Of a stretch of DNA of 64,000 bases, positions 40,469-59,647 are shown one piece after another. The notes under the pieces were generated by a model. The model saw only the letters and a list, made by a program, of their open reading frames with translations. It was not told where the DNA came from and made no database searches. Positions within the stretch are counted from its first letter, which is position 1. Each line of letters begins with the position of its first letter. Source of the DNA: Fulvimarina sp. (GTDB lineage: Bacteria > Pseudomonadota > Alphaproteobacteria > Rhizobiales > Rhizobiaceae). The DNA lies in NCBI GenBank assembly GCA_002700095.1, contig PACL01000059.1, forward strand, positions 1 through 64,000. Reading direction: 5' to 3'. The position numbers and the translations under genes were made by a program.

Positions 40469-40776
40469 CGCGAGCCCGCGCGCCGGGCCACGATGGCGGC
40501 GCGCATCTCGGCATAGACCTCTTCGGCCGGAATGCTCGCGCCGCTCGTGTCGCCGGCCCGGATCGCCTCGCGCAGCGCCATCAGTTCACGCCGCTCGCTA
40601 TCGCGAGATCTGGTCCATTCGCGCAAGGCTTCCCGCACCACCTCGCTGGTCGAGGCATATTCGCCCTCGGACACGGCCGCCTTGACGGCCGCGGCCATCT
40701 CGGCGGCCGCGGCCATCTCGGCGGGCACGGCCATCTCGGCGGGCACGGTGATGGTCATGCGTTCGATCGACGACAT
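40465..40776 (-). CDS. parD: ParD-type antitoxin with expanded N-terminus
   Basis: The 103-residue protein has a ribbon-helix-helix N-terminus (ERMTITVPAEMA) and the ParD/CopG string EYASTSEVVREALREWTR. Between the beta strand and helix 1 it has two extra copies of a six-residue unit (VPAEMA, VPAEMA, AAAEMA), from an 18-bp tandem repeat. Other ParD proteins go directly from the strand to AAAVKAAV. Its toxin partner is truncated, so this is an orphan or decaying antitoxin. ATG 40776 is the family start. Confidence 0.85.
   Translation of the reverse strand: MSSIERMTITVPAEMAVPAEMAAAAEMAAAVKAAVSEGEYASTSEVVREALREWTRSRDSERRELMALREAIRAGDTSGASIPAEEVYAEMRAAIVARRAGSR
40693..40746. repeat. Three tandem 18-bp units inside parD
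   Basis: Units lie at 40693-40710, 40711-40728 and 40729-40746. The last two are identical (GGCCATCTCGGCGGGCAC on the plus strand) and the first differs only at its end. They keep the reading frame and each adds six residues. Confidence 0.92.
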
Positions 40777-42778: not shown

Positions 42779-43228
42779 TCAGCCGCCGTTCCGGGCGAGC
42801 CAGGCCTTCATCTGAGCGATTTCGGACTCCTGCGCCTTGATGATCGTCTCGGCCAGCGCCCGGGCCTCCGGGTCCTTGCCGTATTGCAGCTCGACCTCGG
42901 CCATGGCGACGGCGCCTTCGTGATGGGCGAGCATGCCGCGCATGAAGTCGATGTCGGGCTTGCCGGTCATCGGGGTCGCCATGCCGGTTTCCATGTCGCC
43001 CATGGCCTTCATGAAGGCTCGGGTCGAGGGCGTGTCGGCCGCGCCACCCGCCGCCATGCCATGCATGCCGTGCGCGCCGTCCATCCCGGGCATTTCGGGC
43101 ATGGCGTCCATGCCGGGCATGGCGTGGTCCATCATGCCCGGCTCGGCGGGCGCCGGCGGGGTCTGGGCCATGGCGAGGCCCGTCGCTCCGAGAATGAGGG
43201 CAGCGGCCAGCGTTGCGATCCTGGTCAT
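42779..43228 (-). CDS. DUF305 exported Met/His-rich protein
   Basis: The 149-residue protein has a signal peptide ([18 protein letters not shown]) and a Met/His-rich stretch ([20 protein letters not shown] and more). The DUF305 core has [19 protein letters not shown]. Met- and His-rich periplasmic proteins often bind copper, and DUF305 proteins appear in copper or metal contexts, but no copper pump or oxidase is adjacent. The function is inferred only. Confidence 0.88.
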
Positions 43229-50180: not shown

Positions 50181-51457
50181 GCGAGCAGTCCGAAGCCGGC
50201 CACATGGAGAAGCAGGAGATCATCATCGTCCGCCGCCGCGGAAATGGTGATGACGGCCATCATGGCGGTGCCTGGAAGATCGCCTTCGCCGACTTCATGA
50301 CGGCGATGATGGCGTTCTTCCTGGTGATGTGGCTGACCAATTCGTCGGACAACGCGACCCGCAAGCAGGTCGCCCAGTACTTCAACCCGATCAAGCTGAA
50401 CGATCCGTCGCCGGCGACCCGCGGCATCAAGCAGAAGGACGACGGCGCCGACCGCAAGGCCGACACCAACGGCGAGAGCGACGCCGAGACCAACGGCGAC
50501 CCGCGCGACCGGCCGGTCGCCGGCGCCGAGAGCGGCGGCGAGGAGAAGTCGATCTTCCGCGATCCCTATTCGGTGCTCGCCGAGATCGTCTCCGAAAGCA
50601 CCAAGAACGGCGAAGGCGAGCTGACCGGCAAGCCGGACGGCTCCGGCCTGCCGGGGCTGAACGGCGGCGAGGCGTATCGCGATCCGTTCGATCCCGATTC
50701 CTGGCAGCTGTCGCCGAACATGATGGAGAGCGGCGGTCGCCTCGACGAGGTCCCGCCGATCGACTTCCGCACGGCCGTCCTGCCGCCTGAAGATCCGATG
50801 AGCGACCCCGAGAAGGGCCGCAAGGGCGAAGGCGTCGACGAGCCGGGCAAGTCGACGGCCGAGGGTGACCAGGCCGACAAGACCGGCTTCAGGCAGGCCG
50901 GCGACGACAAGGGCGCGGCCTCGGGGCCGGGCGCCGATCCCAAGGCCAATGACGCCGGGGGCAAGGACGCCGGCAAGGGCGACAAGACCGAGCCGGGCGA
51001 AGCCGAGACGCTGAAGGCCGAGATCGGCACCGAGCTTGCCAAGCTGGGCGACCGCGTGCCGGCGCAGGTCGAGGTGGTCGAGGGCGAGGGCGGGGTGACC
51101 ATCTCGCTCGCCGACGACGCCTCGGGCGGCATGTTCCCCGTCGGCTCGGCCAAGCCGACCGCCGACGCCATCCGCATGATGGAGACGATCGCCGCGGTGC
51201 TGTCGAAGCGGGCGGGCACGATCACCATCCGCGGCCACACCGATTCGCGCCCCTACAGCAACGGCGAATACGACAACTGGCGCCTGTCCACCTCGCGGGC
51301 CCACATGGCCTATTACATGCTGGCGCGTGGCGGCCTCGACGAAAGCCGCGTCAAGGCGATCGAGGGCTTCGCCGACCGCGAGCCGAAGGATTCGGCGAAC
51401 CCGGAGGCGGCGATCAACCGCCGTATCGAAATCTTCCTCACCGAGCCGCAGGCGTGA
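50177..51457 (+). CDS. motB: Flagellar stator protein MotB
   Basis: The 426-residue protein anchors the stator. The single membrane helix carries the proton-binding Asp in KIAFADFMTAMMAFFLVMWL. A long acidic, low-complexity periplasmic linker follows (about residues 75-285), then an OmpA-like peptidoglycan-binding domain with IRGHTDSRPYSNGEYDNWRL, AEGFADREP-like EGFADREPKDS and NRRIEIFL. GTG 50177 overlaps the upstream stop; ATG 50204 is an alternative start. The partner motA is outside the window. The linker is unusually long, as in other rhizobia. Confidence 0.95.
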   Translation: MSEQSEAGHMEKQEIIIVRRRGNGDDGHHGGAWKIAFADFMTAMMAFFLVMWLTNSSDNATRKQVAQYFNPIKLNDPSPATRGIKQKDDGADRKADTNGESDAETNGDPRDRPVAGAESGGEEKSIFRDPYSVLAEIVSESTKNGEGELTGKPDGSGLPGLNGGEAYRDPFDPDSWQLSPNMMESGGRLDEVPPIDFRTAVLPPEDPMSDPEKGRKGEGVDEPGKSTAEGDQADKTGFRQAGDDKGAASGPGADPKANDAGGKDAGKGDKTEPGEAETLKAEIGTELAKLGDRVPAQVEVVEGEGGVTISLADDASGGMFPVGSAKPTADAIRMMETIAAVLSKRAGTITIRGHTDSRPYSNGEYDNWRLSTSRAHMAYYMLARGGLDESRVKAIEGFADREPKDSANPEAAINRRIEIFLTEPQA

Positions 51458-52989
51458 TGCGCGGACGAGCTGATCATCTGGCCGCCGCGGTGGCGCTCGC
51501 CGCGCTGCTTCTGGCCGGCTCCGCCCGTGCCGAGGACGCGCCTGACACCGCCGCGGCGAGCGCTGCCGAACAGGTGCGCGAGGCCGGCGAGGCGGCGCGC
51601 CGCGGCGACGCGTTGCCTGCGGGAGAGGCGGCCGGCCATGGCGGCGAAGATCATGTGGAAGCCCATGCCGACGGCGATGCCCATGGCACCGAGGCGGCGG
51701 CCGGAGAAGGCCATGGCGCAGAGGGCGAGGCCGGCCATGGCGAGGCCGGCAAGGGCGAGGAGGGCGCGCCCCATGCCAATACCGAGGCGAAGCATGGCGA
51801 GACGGCCGCCGGCGAAGCCGATGGCCATGGCGAGGACGCCGATGCCGCGCATGGCGAGGCGGCCGCACATCCCGAGCCGGCGCCCCAGCGCGGCCCCCAG
51901 CCATACGAGGTGATCCGCTCGCTGCAGTTCCTGCAGGACCAGGCGGCGCGCGGCAACGAATCGGCGAACCGCGTGCAGGCCCGCCTGCTGCAATGGTACG
52001 GGCCGGCCTTCCAGCGGGCGAGCCAGGAGACCTGGAAGGACCCGCGCAACCAGCGGGCGGCGGCGCTGTTCGTCTTGAGCGGCGGGCCGCCCTCGGTGCT
52101 GCGGATGATCCTCGCCAAGAACGATTTTCCGCCGGACGTCAGGCCGCTGCTGGACGGTGCGCTCGCCTATGTCGAAAACCGCCAGAAGGAGGACGAGACG
52201 ATGCTCTCGGCGCTGGACACGGCGACGATGGAGCCGGGGCTCGCCGCGCAGGTCAATCTCGCCCTTGCCCAGATGCAGGAGAAGGCGGCACCGGACAAGG
52301 CGCTGGAACGGCTGCGCCGGGTGATGCTCGACGCCTCCGGCACGCTTTTGGAGGAAGCGGCGCTCCGCCTCGGCATGGCGCTGGCCGAGCAGCTCGGCGA
52401 GCATGCCCGCGCCGACGACTATGCGCGGCTGTATTTCGCCCGATACGCATCATCGATCTACGCCGGCAACTTTCGCGCGAGGTTCACGGCGCTTTATGTG
52501 GCGCGGCCGTTCGACCAGGCGGAAGAGACCGTTGGGCTCGTCGAGGATGCGGTGGCCCGGATCCCGCTGGTCGACCAGGTCAACATCTACCTGTCGATCG
52601 GGCGCCGGGCGCTCGTCGCCGGCAACATGAAGCTCGCAGGACTGGCAGGAGCAAGGGTGCTCGACGTTCGCAATCTCAGCCAGGCCGCGCGGCAGCGGGC
52701 GCTGCTCTACGTCGCCGCCTCGACCCTGACCGAGCGCGACACGGCGGAGACGCTGGCCTCGCTCGAAGCGATCGACAGGGAGATCCTCCATCCGGCCGAC
52801 CGCAAGCTCTTCGACGCCGCGATGGGGGTTCTGGGCGAGATCCGCAAGCCGCTGATGGCGGCGGCCGAGGCGGACCCCAACGACCCCGCCGACACCACGT
52901 CGGCGGCAGCCCTCGATTCCTCCGTGGTCGATCGGGCGACGAAACTTCTCGATGCCGTGCGCAGCGACCTGGAAGGCATGGACAAATGA
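51457..52989 (+). CDS. motC: Periplasmic motility protein MotC with His-rich segment
   Basis: The 510-residue protein has a signal peptide (AAAVALAALLLAGSARA). A Gly/Glu/Ala/His-rich stretch (residues about 56-138) has 11 histidines in HGE- and GHG-type repeats. The conserved MotC body starts at PQPYEVIRSLQFLQDQAARG. In rhizobia MotC binds MotB in the periplasm and is needed for motor function. Its ATG shares one base with the motB stop (TGATG), and its stop overlaps fliK. The His-rich stretch looks like an expansion and may bind metal. Confidence 0.93.
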   Translation: MRGRADHLAAAVALAALLLAGSARAEDAPDTAAASAAEQVREAGEAARRGDALPAGEAAGHGGEDHVEAHADGDAHGTEAAAGEGHGAEGEAGHGEAGKGEEGAPHANTEAKHGETAAGEADGHGEDADAAHGEAAAHPEPAPQRGPQPYEVIRSLQFLQDQAARGNESANRVQARLLQWYGPAFQRASQETWKDPRNQRAAALFVLSGGPPSVLRMILAKNDFPPDVRPLLDGALAYVENRQKEDETMLSALDTATMEPGLAAQVNLALAQMQEKAAPDKALERLRRVMLDASGTLLEEAALRLGMALAEQLGEHARADDYARLYFARYASSIYAGNFRARFTALYVARPFDQAEETVGLVEDAVARIPLVDQVNIYLSIGRRALVAGNMKLAGLAGARVLDVRNLSQAARQRALLYVAASTLTERDTAETLASLEAIDREILHPADRKLFDAAMGVLGEIRKPLMAAAEADPNDPADTTSAAALDSSVVDRATKLLDAVRSDLEGMDK

Positions 52990-55900
52990 CGATCGCGGGG
53001 CGGGTTCAGGCAGAGGTGACGGCGGTGGCCGGCAATCGCGCGACGACGCGCGGCGCGGGCAGCGGCACTGGCACCGGCGACGGCGAGGAATTCTTCGCTG
53101 CCATGCGCGAGGCCGGAGCCTCGCGCGACAGCGGCAACGCTGCCTCGCCCAAGCGGTCGACGGAACGCGCCGAGCGGAATGCCGGCGGCTCCAGGGACGC
53201 TGCCAAAGAGCAGGCGCCGGGAGCAAAGGACGCCGGCGACCTGACCGACATCGTCGCCAGCGTCGCCGAAGCGGACGACGACGGCGCCGCGAAGGCGACC
53301 TCGGCCGACGACGCGGCCGCGACGAAGCGCCGGTCGCAGAACCGCAATGCCACCCAAGCGCAGACGCCGGGCAAGGTACGGACCGTCGGCGATGCCGTCG
53401 ACACATCGGACGAAGGCGATGCGGCGGTGTCCGCCACGGGCCCGGATGGCGCCGAGGGCGCGGTAAAGGATGCCGGGGGCGCGGTGACGAGCGAAGACGG
53501 CGCGCCGACGCGTGCCGAGGGCCGCAAGGGCCGGGCGTCGGCGCCGGCGGCTCAGCCGGCGACGACCGGCGGCCAGACTCCAGATGCCGCCGAGGCCGGA
53601 AAGGCCGCCGGCGACGAAACCGTTGCGGCCGATGCCGCCAGCGAGCCGGCCGGCCGCACCGCGCGTCCGGACACCGCACGCTTGGGCGCCGGCGACGCGG
53701 TCCCGGCGGTCGATGCCACCGGCCGGAGGCGAGCCGCGCTGCACGCGCCCGTCGCTGCCGCCGCCACGGCCGATCCCGAATTGACCCGGCTGCGCCTCCT
53801 GCAGGCGGGCCTCGGCGTCGAGAACCCGACGGTCGGGCTGCAACTTTCGGCCGAACAGACCGCCATGCGGCTGGGGCTGCTGCTTCCCGGGGACGCGAAC
53901 GCTGCGGCGCCGAAGGACGTCGCGCCGACGCCGCCGCGCAGCGGCCGCACCATCGTGACCGTCGGCCGCGGCGAACTCGTCGCCGAGCGTTCGCAGGAAG
54001 AGGAGCGGGTCGTCGAATCGAAGATCGCCGCCGCCTCGCTGGCGCCGCTCTCGCCCGAGGCCAAGCTCGCGGCGATCCTCGGCGGCTTCGGGCTCGAGAG
54101 CCGGATCTTCGCCGCGACGGATACCACCCCGAATGCGGCCGCTGACCCGGAGGCGGCGATCCCGGCTACGGCGGCGCAGCCGGCGCGTGATCCCGCCTCG
54201 CGCGATCCCGGCATCATGACCTCCGTCGCACCGGCGGCGCTGCGTTCCGGCGGTGCGACCGGCGAAGCTGCGGCCGGATCGTCCCGCGCTGCGGGCGCCG
54301 CGTCCGGCGCCGCCCCCCCGGCTGCCGGCCCGGCCGCCAGCCCGGCGCTGCCGGCTGCCGCCGCGAGGGCCGATTCGGGAGCCGCTCCGGCGGCCGAGAC
54401 CCGGGCCGCTTTCGTGGTTCCGTCCCGCAATGCCGGCGACGCCGCCGACAAGCTGGCCTCACGGATCGCCGCCGCCGGGGTCACCGGCATGCCTGCCGGC
54501 AAGGCGGCGGCATCCGCACGCGCCGACACCGTCGATGCGGCGGCGCTGCGCCGTGTGCCCCGGCAGACGGCTTCGGCCTCGACATCGACGCTTGGAGCTC
54601 GCGTCGACCTCGTCTCCATGCGCACCGACTTCGAGCCGGCGACCCGCCGCGCCGAACGCCAGACCACCGGCGAGGCGCCGGCGCCGGTCTCCGGCACCGC
54701 AGGCCCGGCGCAATCCGGCACCCCCAGCCGCGTGATGGCGGCGGCCGCTGCCATCGTCGACGCCCCAGCGACGAGCCGGCGCCCGGCCGTGGACGCAGCC
54801 GCTGCCGCGCCGGTCGCCGCCTCGGCGCCGAGCGTCGCTTCGGCGGCGCGCGAGCCGGCCGCCGCTGTGCCCGTCGTCGCAGCTCCGGCCGTCGCCGCTG
54901 CGCCCATGGCTGCTGCGCCCGCCGCGGCTGCACCAGCCGTTATCGCGCCGGTCGTTGCCGCGCAGAGCGCCGCAGCCGCCGGGTTGCCGGTGGCCCAGGG
55001 CCTCTCCGGCAGAACTACTTCCGTGCCCCAGCCGGCCAGCACCCGCGAGCCGCGCGCCGTTCCGGCGAGTGCGCGGGAGAGCGCATCCGCCCCGGCCGCG
55101 GCAAAGGCCGCTGCATCTGCCATGCCGAAGGCGGCGGTGCCACCGGCTGTGGGGCAACAGGCCGGCATGGCCGCCCTCGAGCGGCCGGCCCCGACCGGCC
55201 AGCCTGCCCCGGTGACGCTCGAGAGCGCGGCTCAGCCGTCGGTGGCGGTCCCGGTCTTCGAGCGGGCCGCGTCCGGACCGGCCATGGCTTCGCCGGCCGC
55301 TCCCGCTGCTCCGCAGGCCCTGAACGGCGCGGCGGGCCAGGCGGCTTCGACCGGTCCTGCGCCGGCGGCGGCGGCAATGCCCGCTTCGGCGACTGCCGCG
55401 TCGCCGGTCGGCACTGGCGCGCCGTCGATGCCGGCGCCATCCGCGAACGGCAACGGCGCGGGTAACGCGCCAGCCGTGGCTGCGGCGAACGATCTTCCGG
55501 CCCAGGCCCTGGCCGCGGCAGCGGCACCGTCCGCCGCGCCGGCCCCGGCGGCGCGCCAGGAGGCGGCTCCGGCGTCGCATGGCACGGCTGCAAATTCCGG
55601 TTCCGCCGGTGCTGTGCCGGGTTCTCAGGCACCGCAGCAGGCAGAATCCCGTCCTGACCAGCCGAGGGCTCCCCACGAGCAGGCCATGAGCGAGGCCAAG
55701 GGCCTGGCCGGGACCGCTTCGACCTCAAGCGCCAACCTGACGACGGGCACGGCGGCGACGCCCACCGCGCCGAGCCAGCGCGCCGCCGGTCCCGATGCCG
55801 GCGCGGCGCCGGGCCGTGCGCCGGCCCTGGCTGGCGCGAGCGAAGGCCCGGTTCCTGCCGGGCGGCAGGATCCGGCCGCAGCTATCCATGACGCCCCCGC

Positions 55901-57353
55901 AAAATCCGAGCCCGCTACCGGTGCCGTGCCTGCCGTGCCGTCCCGGGAACCCCAGCAAGCCGGCCCGCGCAACGGCGGCGCCGATGTTTTCCGAGGCAAG
56001 GGGCTGACCGACGCGAAGGACGCGGCAGGCGCCGCGCATGCGTCGAACGCGCCGTCAGGAACGGCGCAGGCGGCCGCTGCGCCGCATGACGACGGCGCCG
56101 AGGCAGGACCTGCATCCGGCAGCGCTAAGGCGGGGTCGGCGGCGAACGAGCGGCCGGTCTCCGCCCCGCGCCAGGACGCGGCTCCAGTGTCGCGTGAGAC
56201 ATCCACCAGCCCCGGGCCGAGGGCCGAGGCTCTGCCTTCGAGCGCCACCCGCGCGACGCCGCAGTCCGACGACCACGGCACCAGCGCACGCGCTACCCCG
56301 GGGCAGGGCTCCCAGGGCCAGGCCATGAGCGAGACGAAGGGTTCTGTCCAGAGCCCGGCCCAGAATCCGGCTCAAAGCCCGGCCCACGGTCAGACGATGA
56401 GTTCCGGGCCGGCGAGCGCCAAGGCGCCCGACGCCCAGCCGGCCGCCGCTTCGGCGCCGGCCGAGAAGTCGGCTGCCGCGACGCCGGTCGAGAAGCCGGT
56501 CGCCCCGGCGCCGGTGGAGAAGCAGGCCGCTGCCCCGGCGCCGGCCGAGGCCGGGCAACCGCAGAAGGACGCGCCCGCGTCCGCGAGGCAGGCTCCGGCG
56601 ATGCCGGTAAAGAACGAGGCGACAATGCCGGCTGCCGCGACGTCGGGCGAGACGACCGTCGCAGCGACGACCGACGTGAAGGCTGTGCCGCAGCAGGACG
56701 ACCGGGCCGCGGCCTTTGCCAGGACGGGCCTGCTGACGCCGTCGGCGGCTCCGGTGGCGCGCTTTGCCGACGCCATGCCGGCCAGCGCGCAGGTGCAGCC
56801 CTCCGCGACGAACCAGATCGCCAATGCCCTGGCTTCCGCCCTCACCGACATGTCGCCGGCGGTGGGCGCCAATGGCGCCGATCGCACGCGGCTGCGTGCC
56901 GGCGGAGCGGCGCTGAAGACCATCCAGATCCAGCTGGCGCCGGAGCAGCTCGGCAAGGTCAACGTCACGCTGAAGCTGATCGAGGGCAACCTGTCGGTCC
57001 ACATCGAAGCCATGGAACCGGACACCGCGATGCGGCTGAAGGACGACGCCGAAGGGCTGAAGGCGCTGCTGAAGTCGGTCGGCTTCGACGTCGACGACGC
57101 GGTGATCACCCTCGGCTCGCGCGACGGCCAGCGCATGGCGCAGGCGAGCGGCATGCCGGGTGACGCTTCGGCGTCCGGGCAGGCGCGGGGCGAGGGATCG
57201 GCCGGTGGCCAGTCCTCCCAGCACGGGCAGTCCGGCCAGCGCGACCAGAGCGGCGGCCGGCCGGCGCGTCCCGAACCCGTCCTGCGCCCGAATGAAGGGG
57301 CCGGCGAGAGCGGACTGCGGCACATGGGGCTCGATCCGTCGATCTACCTCTGA
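52986..57353 (+). CDS. fliK: Flagellar hook-length control protein FliK (MotD), very long
   Basis: The 1455-residue protein starts at ATG 52986, overlapping the motC stop (ATGA). The C-terminal Flg_hook domain (about residues 1310-1390) reads IQIQLAPEQLGKVNVTLKLI and LKALLKSVGFDVDDAVI, typical of FliK. The rest is Ala/Pro/Gly/Ser-rich and disordered, with three imperfect repeats starting with RQ(E/D) at about residues 857, 960 and 1062. Rhizobial FliK/MotD is usually far shorter (about 475 residues in Sinorhizobium, from memory). FliK length sets hook length, so this one predicts a long hook. A large antisense frame here is a shadow. Confidence 0.92.
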   Translation: MTIAGRVQAEVTAVAGNRATTRGAGSGTGTGDGEEFFAAMREAGASRDSGNAASPKRSTERAERNAGGSRDAAKEQAPGAKDAGDLTDIVASVAEADDDGAAKATSADDAAATKRRSQNRNATQAQTPGKVRTVGDAVDTSDEGDAAVSATGPDGAEGAVKDAGGAVTSEDGAPTRAEGRKGRASAPAAQPATTGGQTPDAAEAGKAAGDETVAADAASEPAGRTARPDTARLGAGDAVPAVDATGRRRAALHAPVAAAATADPELTRLRLLQAGLGVENPTVGLQLSAEQTAMRLGLLLPGDANAAAPKDVAPTPPRSGRTIVTVGRGELVAERSQEEERVVESKIAAASLAPLSPEAKLAAILGGFGLESRIFAATDTTPNAAADPEAAIPATAAQPARDPASRDPGIMTSVAPAALRSGGATGEAAAGSSRAAGAASGAAPPAAGPAASPALPAAAARADSGAAPAAETRAAFVVPSRNAGDAADKLASRIAAAGVTGMPAGKAAASARADTVDAAALRRVPRQTASASTSTLGARVDLVSMRTDFEPATRRAERQTTGEAPAPVSGTAGPAQSGTPSRVMAAAAAIVDAPATSRRPAVDAAAAAPVAASAPSVASAAREPAAAVPVVAAPAVAAAPMAAAPAAAAPAVIAPVVAAQSAAAAGLPVAQGLSGRTTSVPQPASTREPRAVPASARESASAPAAAKAAASAMPKAAVPPAVGQQAGMAALERPAPTGQPAPVTLESAAQPSVAVPVFERAASGPAMASPAAPAAPQALNGAAGQAASTGPAPAAAAMPASATAASPVGTGAPSMPAPSANGNGAGNAPAVAAANDLPAQALAAAAAPSAAPAPAARQEAAPASHGTAANSGSAGAVPGSQAPQQAESRPDQPRAPHEQAMSEAKGLAGTASTSSANLTTGTAATPTAPSQRAAGPDAGAAPGRAPALAGASEGPVPAGRQDPAAAIHDAPAKSEPATGAVPAVPSREPQQAGPRNGGADVFRGKGLTDAKDAAGAAHASNAPSGTAQAAAAPHDDGAEAGPASGSAKAGSAANERPVSAPRQDAAPVSRETSTSPGPRAEALPSSATRATPQSDDHGTSARATPGQGSQGQAMSETKGSVQSPAQNPAQSPAHGQTMSSGPASAKAPDAQPAAASAPAEKSAAATPVEKPVAPAPVEKQAAAPAPAEAGQPQKDAPASARQAPAMPVKNEATMPAAATSGETTVAATTDVKAVPQQDDRAAAFARTGLLTPSAAPVARFADAMPASAQVQPSATNQIANALASALTDMSPAVGANGADRTRLRAGGAALKTIQIQLAPEQLGKVNVTLKLIEGNLSVHIEAMEPDTAMRLKDDAEGLKALLKSVGFDVDDAVITLGSRDGQRMAQASGMPGDASASGQARGEGSAGGQSSQHGQSGQRDQSGGRPARPEPVLRPNEGAGESGLRHMGLDPSIYL

Positions 57354-57464: not shown

Positions 57465-57532
57465 AGGCTTTCGTTAACCAAAAAAATGCGCGTGGGAAAT
57501 CAGCAACTTACGTGCTAACCGGGAAGGGATGG

Positions 57533-57547
57533 TTAATAGATCACTAA
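57533..57547 (+). promoter_or_regulatory. Near-consensus CtrA-type site upstream of ftcR
   Basis: TTAA-TAGATCA-CTAA matches TTAA-N7-TTAA at seven of eight positions. It lies 77 bases before the ftcR start, almost the same distance as the perfect box before fliF. A separate half-site TTAACC is at 57474-57479. Confidence 0.45.
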
Positions 57548-57624
57548 ATTTCAGGATTGGTGCAAGACTCGCGTCAGGTTACGGTTTTTTTACCAACAAC
57601 GCGGCGGCGGACGGAGCGGGGAAA

Positions 57625-58296
57625 ATGATCGTAGTGGTTGATAATCGGGAGCTGGTGACGAGCGGATACCAGTCGCTGTTTGCTCGCGAGGGCGTCTCGA
57701 CGGCGACCTTCGGCTCGGAGGAATTTCGCGACTGGGTCGAGACGGCGCCGGAAGCCGATCTGTCGGCGGTCGAGGCCTTCCTCTTGGGCGACTTCGACGA
57801 GCGGGCGGTCTGCCCGCGGCTGATCCGGTCGCGCTCGACGGCCCCGATGATCGCGCTCTCCGAGAGCCGCAACCTGGACGGGACGCTCGACCTCTTCGCG
57901 GCCGGTGTCGACGACGTCGTCGCCAAGCCGGTCCACGTCAAGGAAATCCTGGCCCGCGTCGGCGCCATCCGCCGGCGGGAGAACGCCGAGGCCACCCGGA
58001 CCGTCGTCGGCGAGATCTGCGTCTATCAGGACGGGCGCGACGCTGAAGTCGCCGGCAAGTCGATGGCCCTGCCGCGCCGCGAGCGCCGCATTCTCGAATA
58101 TCTGGTGTCCAACCGTGGTCGCCGGGTCTCCAAGCAGCAGCTCTTCAACGCCATCTACGGCATCTTCGACGAGAACGTCGAAGAGAACGTCATCGAGAGC
58201 CACATCTCCAAGCTGCGCAAGAAGCTGAAGATGCGTCTGGGTTACGATCCGGTGTCCTCCAAGCGTTACCTCGGATACGGCATCGGAGTAGAATAA
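57625..58296 (+). CDS. ftcR: Flagellar transcriptional regulator FtcR
   Basis: The 223-residue protein is an orphan OmpR-type response regulator found in rhizobia and Brucella, where it activates hook genes. The receiver domain begins MIVVVDNRELVTSGYQSLFA and continues with PMIALSESRNLDGTLDLFAAGVDDVVAKP. The Trans_reg_C winged helix has PRRERRILEYLVSNRGRRVS and VIESHISKLRKKLK. The acidic phosphorylation pocket looks degenerate, so control may not depend on a kinase. ATG 57625 has a purine-rich GGAGCGGGGAAA upstream. It sits directly before flgE, its likely target. Confidence 0.94.
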   Translation: MIVVVDNRELVTSGYQSLFAREGVSTATFGSEEFRDWVETAPEADLSAVEAFLLGDFDERAVCPRLIRSRSTAPMIALSESRNLDGTLDLFAAGVDDVVAKPVHVKEILARVGAIRRRENAEATRTVVGEICVYQDGRDAEVAGKSMALPRRERRILEYLVSNRGRRVSKQQLFNAIYGIFDENVEENVIESHISKLRKKLKMRLGYDPVSSKRYLGYGIGVE

Positions 58297-58462: not shown

Positions 58463-59647
58463 ATGAGCATCAACGGCGTTTTCAGAACCAGTGTCTCGGG
58501 CATGAACGCACAGGCCAATCGCCTGTCCGTCATCTCGGACAACATCTCCAATTCCGGCACTGACGGCTACAAGCGCAGCGAGGCGGAATTCTCCTCGCTG
58601 GTGATCGCCCAGTCCGGCGCTGGCCAGTACAATTCCGGCTCGATCAAGACCGACGTCCGGCAGATGATCTCGGAGCAGGGCTCGATCGCCTCGACCTCCT
58701 CGGCCACCGACGTGGCGATCTCCGGCGACGGCTTCTTCGTCGTCCAGGACCAGACCGGCCGCGAGTTCTATACCCGGGCGGGTTCCTTCGTGCGGCGCAC
58801 CGAGACGACGCCGGCCGGCGAGACCACCTATCTGGTCAATTCCGGCGGCTATCGCCTGACCGGCACGGACCTCAATACCGGCACGACGGGTGCCATCGAG
58901 CTGCCAGTCGGCCAGATCGTCGCGCCGAAAGCGACGACCGCCGCCGAACTCGACCTGCAGTTTCCGCTAACCGCCGGCATCGGCGACAGCAAGACCACCT
59001 CCTTCGTCGCCTATGACAATGTCGGCTCGGCCAACACCCTGACCATGACGATGACCAAGACGGCGGCCAACGAGTGGACGCTCGACCTGTCGGACGGCAC
59101 CACGACCACGTCCACCACCGTGACCTTCGACCCGACGAACGGTGTTCCCTCGACGACGGGTGCCCCGGGCACGATGAGCATCACGCTCGGCACCGGCAAC
59201 ACCGTCGACGTCGATTTCGGTTCGCTGACGGAATACGACACCGACTTCTCGGCCAAGGTCTCGAAGAACGGCAACCCTGCCGGATACTTCCAGGAATTCA
59301 CGATCAACGAGATGGGCGGCGTCGCCGGCGTCATGGGCGTCATGGCCGACGGTTCGCTGGTCTCGCTCTACCAGCTCAATCTCGCCCGCTTCACCGCTCC
59401 CGACAAGCTGCAGGCCGGCACCGGGAACGTCTATTCGGCGACGCTGCAGTCCGGCACCGTGGAATACGGCCTGCCGAGCACCAACGGCTTCGGCGACATC
59501 GTCTCGAATGCGGTCGAGACCTCCAACGTCGACCTCGCCAGCGAGCTGACCAGCATGATCGAGTCCCAGCGCTCCTACAGCGCCAACTCGAAGGTCTTCC
59601 AGACCGGCTCGGAAATTCTCGACGTCCTCATCAACCTGAAGCGCTGA
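58463..59647 (+). CDS. flgE: Flagellar hook protein FlgE
   Basis: The 394-residue protein polymerises into the hook. Its N-terminal coiled-coil segment reads FRTSVSGMNAQANRLSVISD followed by NISNSGTDGYKRSEAEF. The central domains are Thr/Ser-rich, and the C-terminus has NVDLASELTSMIESQRSYSANSK-type sequence ending SEILDVLINLKR. The start follows GGAG at close spacing. In this genome the hook may be longer than usual because FliK is very large. Confidence 0.96.
   Translation: MSINGVFRTSVSGMNAQANRLSVISDNISNSGTDGYKRSEAEFSSLVIAQSGAGQYNSGSIKTDVRQMISEQGSIASTSSATDVAISGDGFFVVQDQTGREFYTRAGSFVRRTETTPAGETTYLVNSGGYRLTGTDLNTGTTGAIELPVGQIVAPKATTAAELDLQFPLTAGIGDSKTTSFVAYDNVGSANTLTMTMTKTAANEWTLDLSDGTTTTSTTVTFDPTNGVPSTTGAPGTMSITLGTGNTVDVDFGSLTEYDTDFSAKVSKNGNPAGYFQEFTINEMGGVAGVMGVMADGSLVSLYQLNLARFTAPDKLQAGTGNVYSATLQSGTVEYGLPSTNGFGDIVSNAVETSNVDLASELTSMIESQRSYSANSKVFQTGSEILDVLINLKR

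Follow-up and report, generated by a model that had tools for sequence, protein, structure and literature searches.

A giant FliK in the genus Jiella and its predicted bearing on flagellar hook length

Introduction

What is encoded by an open reading frame (ORF) of 1455 codons in a flagellar gene cluster, how did it become so long, and would its length be passed on to the flagellar hook? These questions are raised by fliK at positions 52986 to 57353 of a 64,000-nucleotide stretch of Fulvimarina sp. DNA (assembly GCA_002700095.1, contig PACL01000059.1), referred to here as the window. The original prediction, made from the letters of this stretch, described a FliK/MotD of 1455 residues in which the C-terminal domain is normal and everything before it greatly enlarged, and proposed that duplication of an internal repeat may tune hook length. 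Our analysis upholds the description of the protein and locates the source of its size elsewhere: the giant FliK, enlarged up to three-fold in Jiella, is a real, extreme and lineage-wide variant of a known ruler, and its size is a trait of the genus Jiella, not of the repeat.

Results

The product of 52986..57353 is FliK, and it is the sole FliK of the genome. Its identity follows from a Flg_hook domain, a place between motC and flgE, and a start that resembles an export signal. The gene and its conserved ends are as follows (window coordinates).

52986..57353, + strand: fliK (motD), giant hook-length control protein, 1455 codons (ORF, 4-nucleotide motC overlap, PF02120)
53091..53105, + strand: FFAAM, residues 36-40, an F-x-x-x-hydrophobic candidate gate-recognition (export) motif (motif comparison)
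56910..57131, + strand: Flg_hook (type III secretion specificity switch) domain, residues 1309-1382 (PF02120, structure model, PDB matches)
57132..57350, + strand: C-terminal tail, residues 1383-1455 (low predicted local distance difference test score, pLDDT; ratio of nonsynonymous to synonymous substitution rates, dN/dS, 0.18 against relative G008 over residues 1392-1455)

The gene starts with an ATG at 52986, overlapping the motC stop codon by 4 nucleotides, and its own stop codon ends at 57353. PF02120 matched residues 1309-1382 with E=1.9e-13 and 50.5 bits (cut-off 29.8), the one such match in a genome that also holds one FlhB-family gene. Pfam searched at E up to 1 gave no family besides Flg_hook, and NCBIfam at E 0.01 gave 0 families for the product, the curated NCBI FliK models included. 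In a structure model of residues 857-1455 most positions had pLDDT <50, save for a small domain with the order beta-beta-beta-alpha-alpha-beta, for which the best PDB matches in Foldseek were 2rrl, the C domain of FliK, and 5cuk, the switch domain of PscP (E near 0.005). Both the PF02120 score and the fold matches identify a Flg_hook/T3S4 switch domain. At the other end, the F-x-x-x-hydrophobic motif, a candidate for the gate-recognition motif of FxxxPhi form, stands at residues 32-36 in 12/12 Jiella and Aurantimonas proteins and falls within the first 70 residues of 88/88 FliKs with a motC-anchored start (shuffled sequences: mean 18.4, maximum 30). The position of the FlgD gate-recognition motif was taken from PMC8983047.

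The size of the protein was compared across relatives. The Flg_hook domain was found in all 10 genomes of the genus that were searched, among them J. flava, J. sonneratiae, J. avicenniae, J. pelagia, Jiella sp. LLJ827 and Aurantimonas sp. 22II-16-19i (G008); more widely, 160/199 genomes of the family, 196/385 of the class and 236/299 of the phylum had a match. Eight unbroken Jiella fliK genes, each with a start overlapping motC, encode 1593 (J. sonneratiae, G007), 1455 (this species), 1439, 1380, 1378 (J. avicenniae), 1269 (G009), 1130 and 766 (J. flava) residues, so that seven of the eight reach at least 1130; J. pelagia (G006), whose frame is broken, and G008, whose gene is interrupted at contig ends, are not in this set. 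By the same start rule, 80 distinct non-Jiella FliKs with motC found span 402-775 residues (median 457.5), and because they take in the eleven loci with the longest listed family-search open frames, the top of this range is, if anything, inflated. The non-Jiella set leaves out two sequences truncated at contig ends, two named loci yielded no FliK, and the start was not the 4-nucleotide overlap in 5/80 (in L127 by 246 nucleotides). Aurantimonas FliK has about 510 residues (A. manganoxydans 513). Outside this genome the longest stop-to-stop frame among the matches listed had 964 codons in the class sample and 856 in the phylum sample, such frames being upper bounds on protein length.

Growth was particular to FliK among the neighbours compared. 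Between eight Jiella and four Aurantimonas, in a comparison for which gene starts were not curated, FlgE measures 394-459 v 384-419 residues, FlgK 482-484 v 492-499, FliF 564-592 v 557-563 and MotB 420-438 v 435-521, while MotC is slightly longer in Jiella (478-543 v 439-466). The MotC N-terminal region, about residues 30-150, is rich in Gly, Glu, Ala and His.

The growth sits in spacers flanking a short conserved motif, Block B, on both sides, between the conserved ends.

53718..54122, + strand: Block A, residues 245-379 (phmmer, alignment)
54603..54638, + strand: Block B, residues 540-551, VDLVSMRTDFEP (motif comparison)
54639..56867, + strand: expanded Ala/Pro/Ser/Gly/Thr-rich spacer, residues 552-1294, from Block B to the C domain (spacer lengths, composition)

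Seven Jiella have 506-542 residues between the protein start and Block B, against 367 in J. flava and 150-242 in ten others; from Block B to the C domain there are 219-874 in eight Jiella, 85-195 in nine others and 391 in one. Residues 575-1295 are 68% A/P/G/S/T with 14% Pro, and pLDDT is mostly below 50, which is the disordered, proline-rich linker expected of a FliK. A motif resembling VDLVSMRTDFEP occurs in 18/92 distinct sequences (eight Jiella, four Aurantimonas and six from other genera sampled), too few to support Block B as a general Rhizobiaceae motif; our guess is that it contacts the hook or its cap. Block A was found by phmmer in all eight other Jiella sequences searched (iE 3e-17 or better) and was undetected in four Aurantimonas. 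A folded domain there is unsupported, as the model is mostly disordered with a mean pLDDT of 46.

A tree built from MotB, MotC, Rem and FlgE (20 taxa, 1505 columns) places Jiella as a clade with support 1.00. The earliest to split off within it are G009 (1269 residues; support 1.00) and J. sonneratiae (1593; 0.84), and J. flava (766) clusters with this species, G008 and G002 (support 0.99). The simplest reading of this tree is that fliK grew on the Jiella stem and was later shortened in J. flava. Against G008, dN/dS was lowest in three C-terminal segments (0.18-0.27), and it ranged over 0.35-0.71 in the nine segments from the N-terminal and middle parts. As the ratio is <1 in 12/12 segments, fliK is a coding sequence under protein-level constraint, looser in the middle.

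Within the expanded spacer lies the repeat array that had drawn attention to the locus.

55554..55862, + strand: repeat copy 1, residues 857-959 (Smith-Waterman, unit profile)
55863..56168, + strand: repeat copy 2, residues 960-1061 (Smith-Waterman, unit profile)
56169..56450, + strand: repeat copy 3, residues 1062-1155, the most degenerate (Smith-Waterman, unit profile)
56437..56549, + strand: 27-bp minisatellite, 4.0 copies, residues about 1151-1189 (TRF, Tandem Repeats Finder)

The copies start at residues 857, 960 and 1062, a spacing of 103 then 102. When chosen segments were compared by Smith-Waterman alignment with 1000 shuffles, copies 1 and 2 scored 124 (shuffled 62 +/- 9; 0/1000 reached 124), copies 1 and 3 scored a significant 98 (4/1000), and copies 2 and 3 a non-significant 71 (101/1000). 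An ungapped self-comparison of residues 841-1180 gave offsets of 171 (score 98) and 102 (score 92) against a shuffled best of 74 +/- 10 (maximum 104 of 60); over the whole protein no ungapped offset exceeded shuffles. The best score in a gapped self-scan was 123 (851/951), with 20 local shuffles giving a mean best of 115.5 (sd 5.7, maximum 131). Taken without chosen segments, the repeat in this species' FliK alone is borderline, with no clear win over a whole-protein scan.

The nearest relative, G008, whose FlgE is 98% identical, is more decisive. Its FliK gave a best gapped self-score of 188 against a shuffled best of 101.8 +/- 9.0 (maximum 122), and its copies, starting at 932, 1037 and 1139, each pair best with their positional counterparts here (302, 376 and 232; the other 12 pairs 60-163). 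Since the three copies of G008 are in register with those here, the array is a genuine triplication that predates the split of the two species. The three imperfect copies of the original prediction, with their spacing of 102-103, are therefore confirmed by the segment alignments and by G008; the 103-residue period that it expected from self-comparison is clear in G008 and borderline in this protein.

The array is not the cause of the giant size. Of 13 proteins searched with a profile of the 103-residue unit (G008 as two pieces), only those of this species and G008 matched, with no copy in seven other unbroken Jiella FliKs or four Aurantimonas; FliKs of 1380, 1439 and 1593 residues lack the unit, and of the roughly 940 residues by which this FliK exceeds that of Aurantimonas, the two extra copies supply about 205. 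The proposal that repeat duplication tunes length is accordingly unsupported in the form given. Other Jiella FliKs have internal similarity of their own, clearest as a duplication in G005 (best 182 against a shuffled best of 84.6 +/- 5.4). In 20 shuffles each, similarity exceeded every shuffle for at least one window size in G001, G002, G007 and G009, and did not exceed shuffles in G004 and J. flava. Different repeats in different Jiella lineages are possible.

The minisatellite, a feature absent from the original prediction, encodes units resembling AEKPAAA. G008 fliK is split by contig ends into 1227 and 312 residues on two contigs, which end and begin inside a matching 30-bp array (C31 end, C35 start); since the contigs break inside this 30-bp version, copy number may change quickly. 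In two Aurantimonas (L067, L071) the short FliKs carry a separate 54-bp tandem repeat (about 3 copies, residues about 110-173), so fliK shows repeat growth outside Jiella too. Elsewhere in the window, 27-bp and 18-bp tandem repeats (43049-43126 and 40674-40748) lie inside ORFs matching DUF305 and a ParD-type antitoxin. The J. pelagia frame is open for the last 203 codons only, and motC ends 4154 nucleotides upstream; that assembly, in 3 contigs, is 84% complete. Indel errors in sequencing may explain the break, given that Caulobacter fliK was once annotated as two genes owing to an error in the reference sequence (PMC8545394).

The neighbouring genes place fliK in a flagellar cluster.

51454..52989, + strand: motC (NCBIfam MotC models, scores below their cut-offs)
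58463..59647, + strand: flgE, hook protein, 394 aa (Pfam and NCBIfam profile matches)

Upstream lie fliF, then a gene that matches FliH weakly and below the cut-off, then motB and motC; downstream are a response-regulator gene, flgE, flgK and, where flgL would stand, a flagellin-like gene. The response-regulator gene is presumably rem, judged by rhizobial gene order. This regulator (57529-58296) matched an OmpR-type C-terminal domain well and a receiver domain at 27.2 bits against a Pfam cut-off of 30.2; the receiver domain is perhaps degenerate. The genome has four flagellin matches beyond the window, and their open frames run to 284-451 codons. The suggestion that a long hook carries a thick filament finds no support, as nothing turned up besides these flagellin matches with their ordinary frames and the lengths of FlgE and FlgK are similar to those in Aurantimonas.

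Discussion

We favour, at a probability of about 0.52, the explanation that this FliK is an exported switch-domain ruler whose spacers grew in the Jiella ancestor, and that it makes hooks longer if the added residues count. As with other FliKs, its path of export would run through the hook during growth, after which the C-terminal domain would switch the export gate from hook protein to flagellin through FlhB. The two disordered spacers flanking Block B would have grown greatly in the Jiella ancestor, with length change continuing since. Should the extra residues act as ruler, which is how insertions and the linker behave in Salmonella FliK, hooks would be much longer than those of relatives. 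The data above establish the identity of the protein, its conserved ends, the expansion across the genus and the constraint at protein level; export, switching and long hooks in Jiella we infer.

The nearest known systems are the FliKs of Sinorhizobium and other alphaproteobacteria (formerly MotD; the renaming of motD is cited in PMC8545394), which share the order motB-motC-fliK-rem-flgE, the Flg_hook C domain and an FxxxPhi-like start, but have 402-775 residues (80 non-Jiella) against 766-1593 in Jiella. Salmonella FliK likewise has an N-terminal ruler, a proline-rich linker and a C-terminal switch domain (PMC6972891). Unlike the 1455 natural residues here, it has 405 naturally and 785 in its longest engineered form (PMC6126814), and the insert is helical there and disordered, as modelled, here. 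The injectisome rulers SctP/YscP/PscP share the switch-domain fold (5cuk), whereas the gene neighbourhood here is flagellar and the genome holds one FlhB-family gene only. In the YscP ruler, repeats lengthen the protein.

In Salmonella, according to PMC6126814, hooks remain controlled and measure 42-135 nm when FliK is varied over 363-785 residues, at 0.2 nm per residue; PMC6972891 counts the linker as part of the ruler. A long hook is a fair inference from this rule. If it holds, hooks would measure about 265 nm here, 293 nm in J. sonneratiae, 127 nm in J. flava and 74-79 nm in Aurantimonas, with about 200-293 nm predicted in seven Jiella species. That Jiella hooks are length-controlled, roughly 130 to 290 nm and graded by FliK length among sister species, is a reading we consider plausible, at somewhat less than even odds. 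Literature searches on FliK and hook length, on Jiella flagella or motility and on FliK in Aurantimonas, judged by their listings, showed neither a paper on the hooks of Jiella or Aurantimonas nor a hook measurement for this group, and passages looked up in PMC5097172 tie no hook length to FliK length.

Several observations weigh against long hooks. The spacer, 14% proline and modelled as disordered, is unlike the helical segments inserted in Salmonella FliK, so the Salmonella slope may not carry over. Its sequence is poorly conserved between species, and FliK length tracks gene guanine-plus-cytosine (GC) content (Spearman 0.83, p 0.010, n=8, uncorrected for kinship), as neutral growth would give. 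Salmonella hook-length mutants with longer hooks swim worse (PMC6126814). As to the ruler identity itself, no Foldseek match of the C domain reached E 0.001, and the sequence-only match to the solved FliK domain 2rrl was weak (E 0.064).

These points lead to the strongest alternative, one we consider plausible though short of probable: the length has no consequence, disordered low-complexity spacers having grown as GC-rich genes underwent slippage and unequal exchange. Such a chain would coil or pass quickly, conserved anchors and export rates would set hook length, and hooks would be near normal. The spacer composition, the minisatellite and differing duplications among Jiella, the GC correlation, the secondary shortening in J. 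flava and the higher dN/dS in the middle than in the C part are all in keeping with it. It fits less well with growth that, of the neighbouring proteins compared, is specific to FliK (MotC is just slightly longer), a start-to-Block-B distance held at 506-542 in 7/8 Jiella, a middle that is still constrained, an A. manganoxydans gene with GC of 0.718 that encodes just 513 residues, and Salmonella hooks that do lengthen with added residues (PMC6126814). Between a long hook and spacer growth with little effect, the odds are about even.

A second role for the enlarged exported spacer, for example as a secreted or surface-associated polymer with hook control as a by-product, is very unlikely. Salmonella FliK is a secreted protein (PMC6972891), and two blocks are conserved within the expanded part; however, Flg_hook is the only Pfam family found, Block A has no predicted fold and nothing ties the protein to another function. 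Least credible is an artefact of wrong start, frame or assembly, for although chance can keep a GC-rich frame open (the stop-to-stop frame here has 1935 codons), G008 breaks inside fliK and the J. pelagia frame is broken, seven other Jiella assemblies carry unbroken genes (766-1593) with the same motC overlap, dN/dS is below 1 throughout and the triple array is orthologous in G008, which also answers the earlier worry about misassembly.

Returning to the favoured reading of an expanded ruler, its interest lies in scale. The quantitative ruler rule rests on engineered Salmonella FliK of up to 785 residues, and Jiella offers a natural series from 766 to 1593 with hook proteins of similar size. 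If hooks are graded accordingly, the rule would hold for FliKs twice as long as the longest engineered one and for a ruler that is disordered and Ala/Pro-rich, and one genus would give a natural series of hook lengths. Jiella could tell apart two outcomes, each of them informative: natural hooks take their length from the ruler, a disordered one included, or the spacer grows freely.

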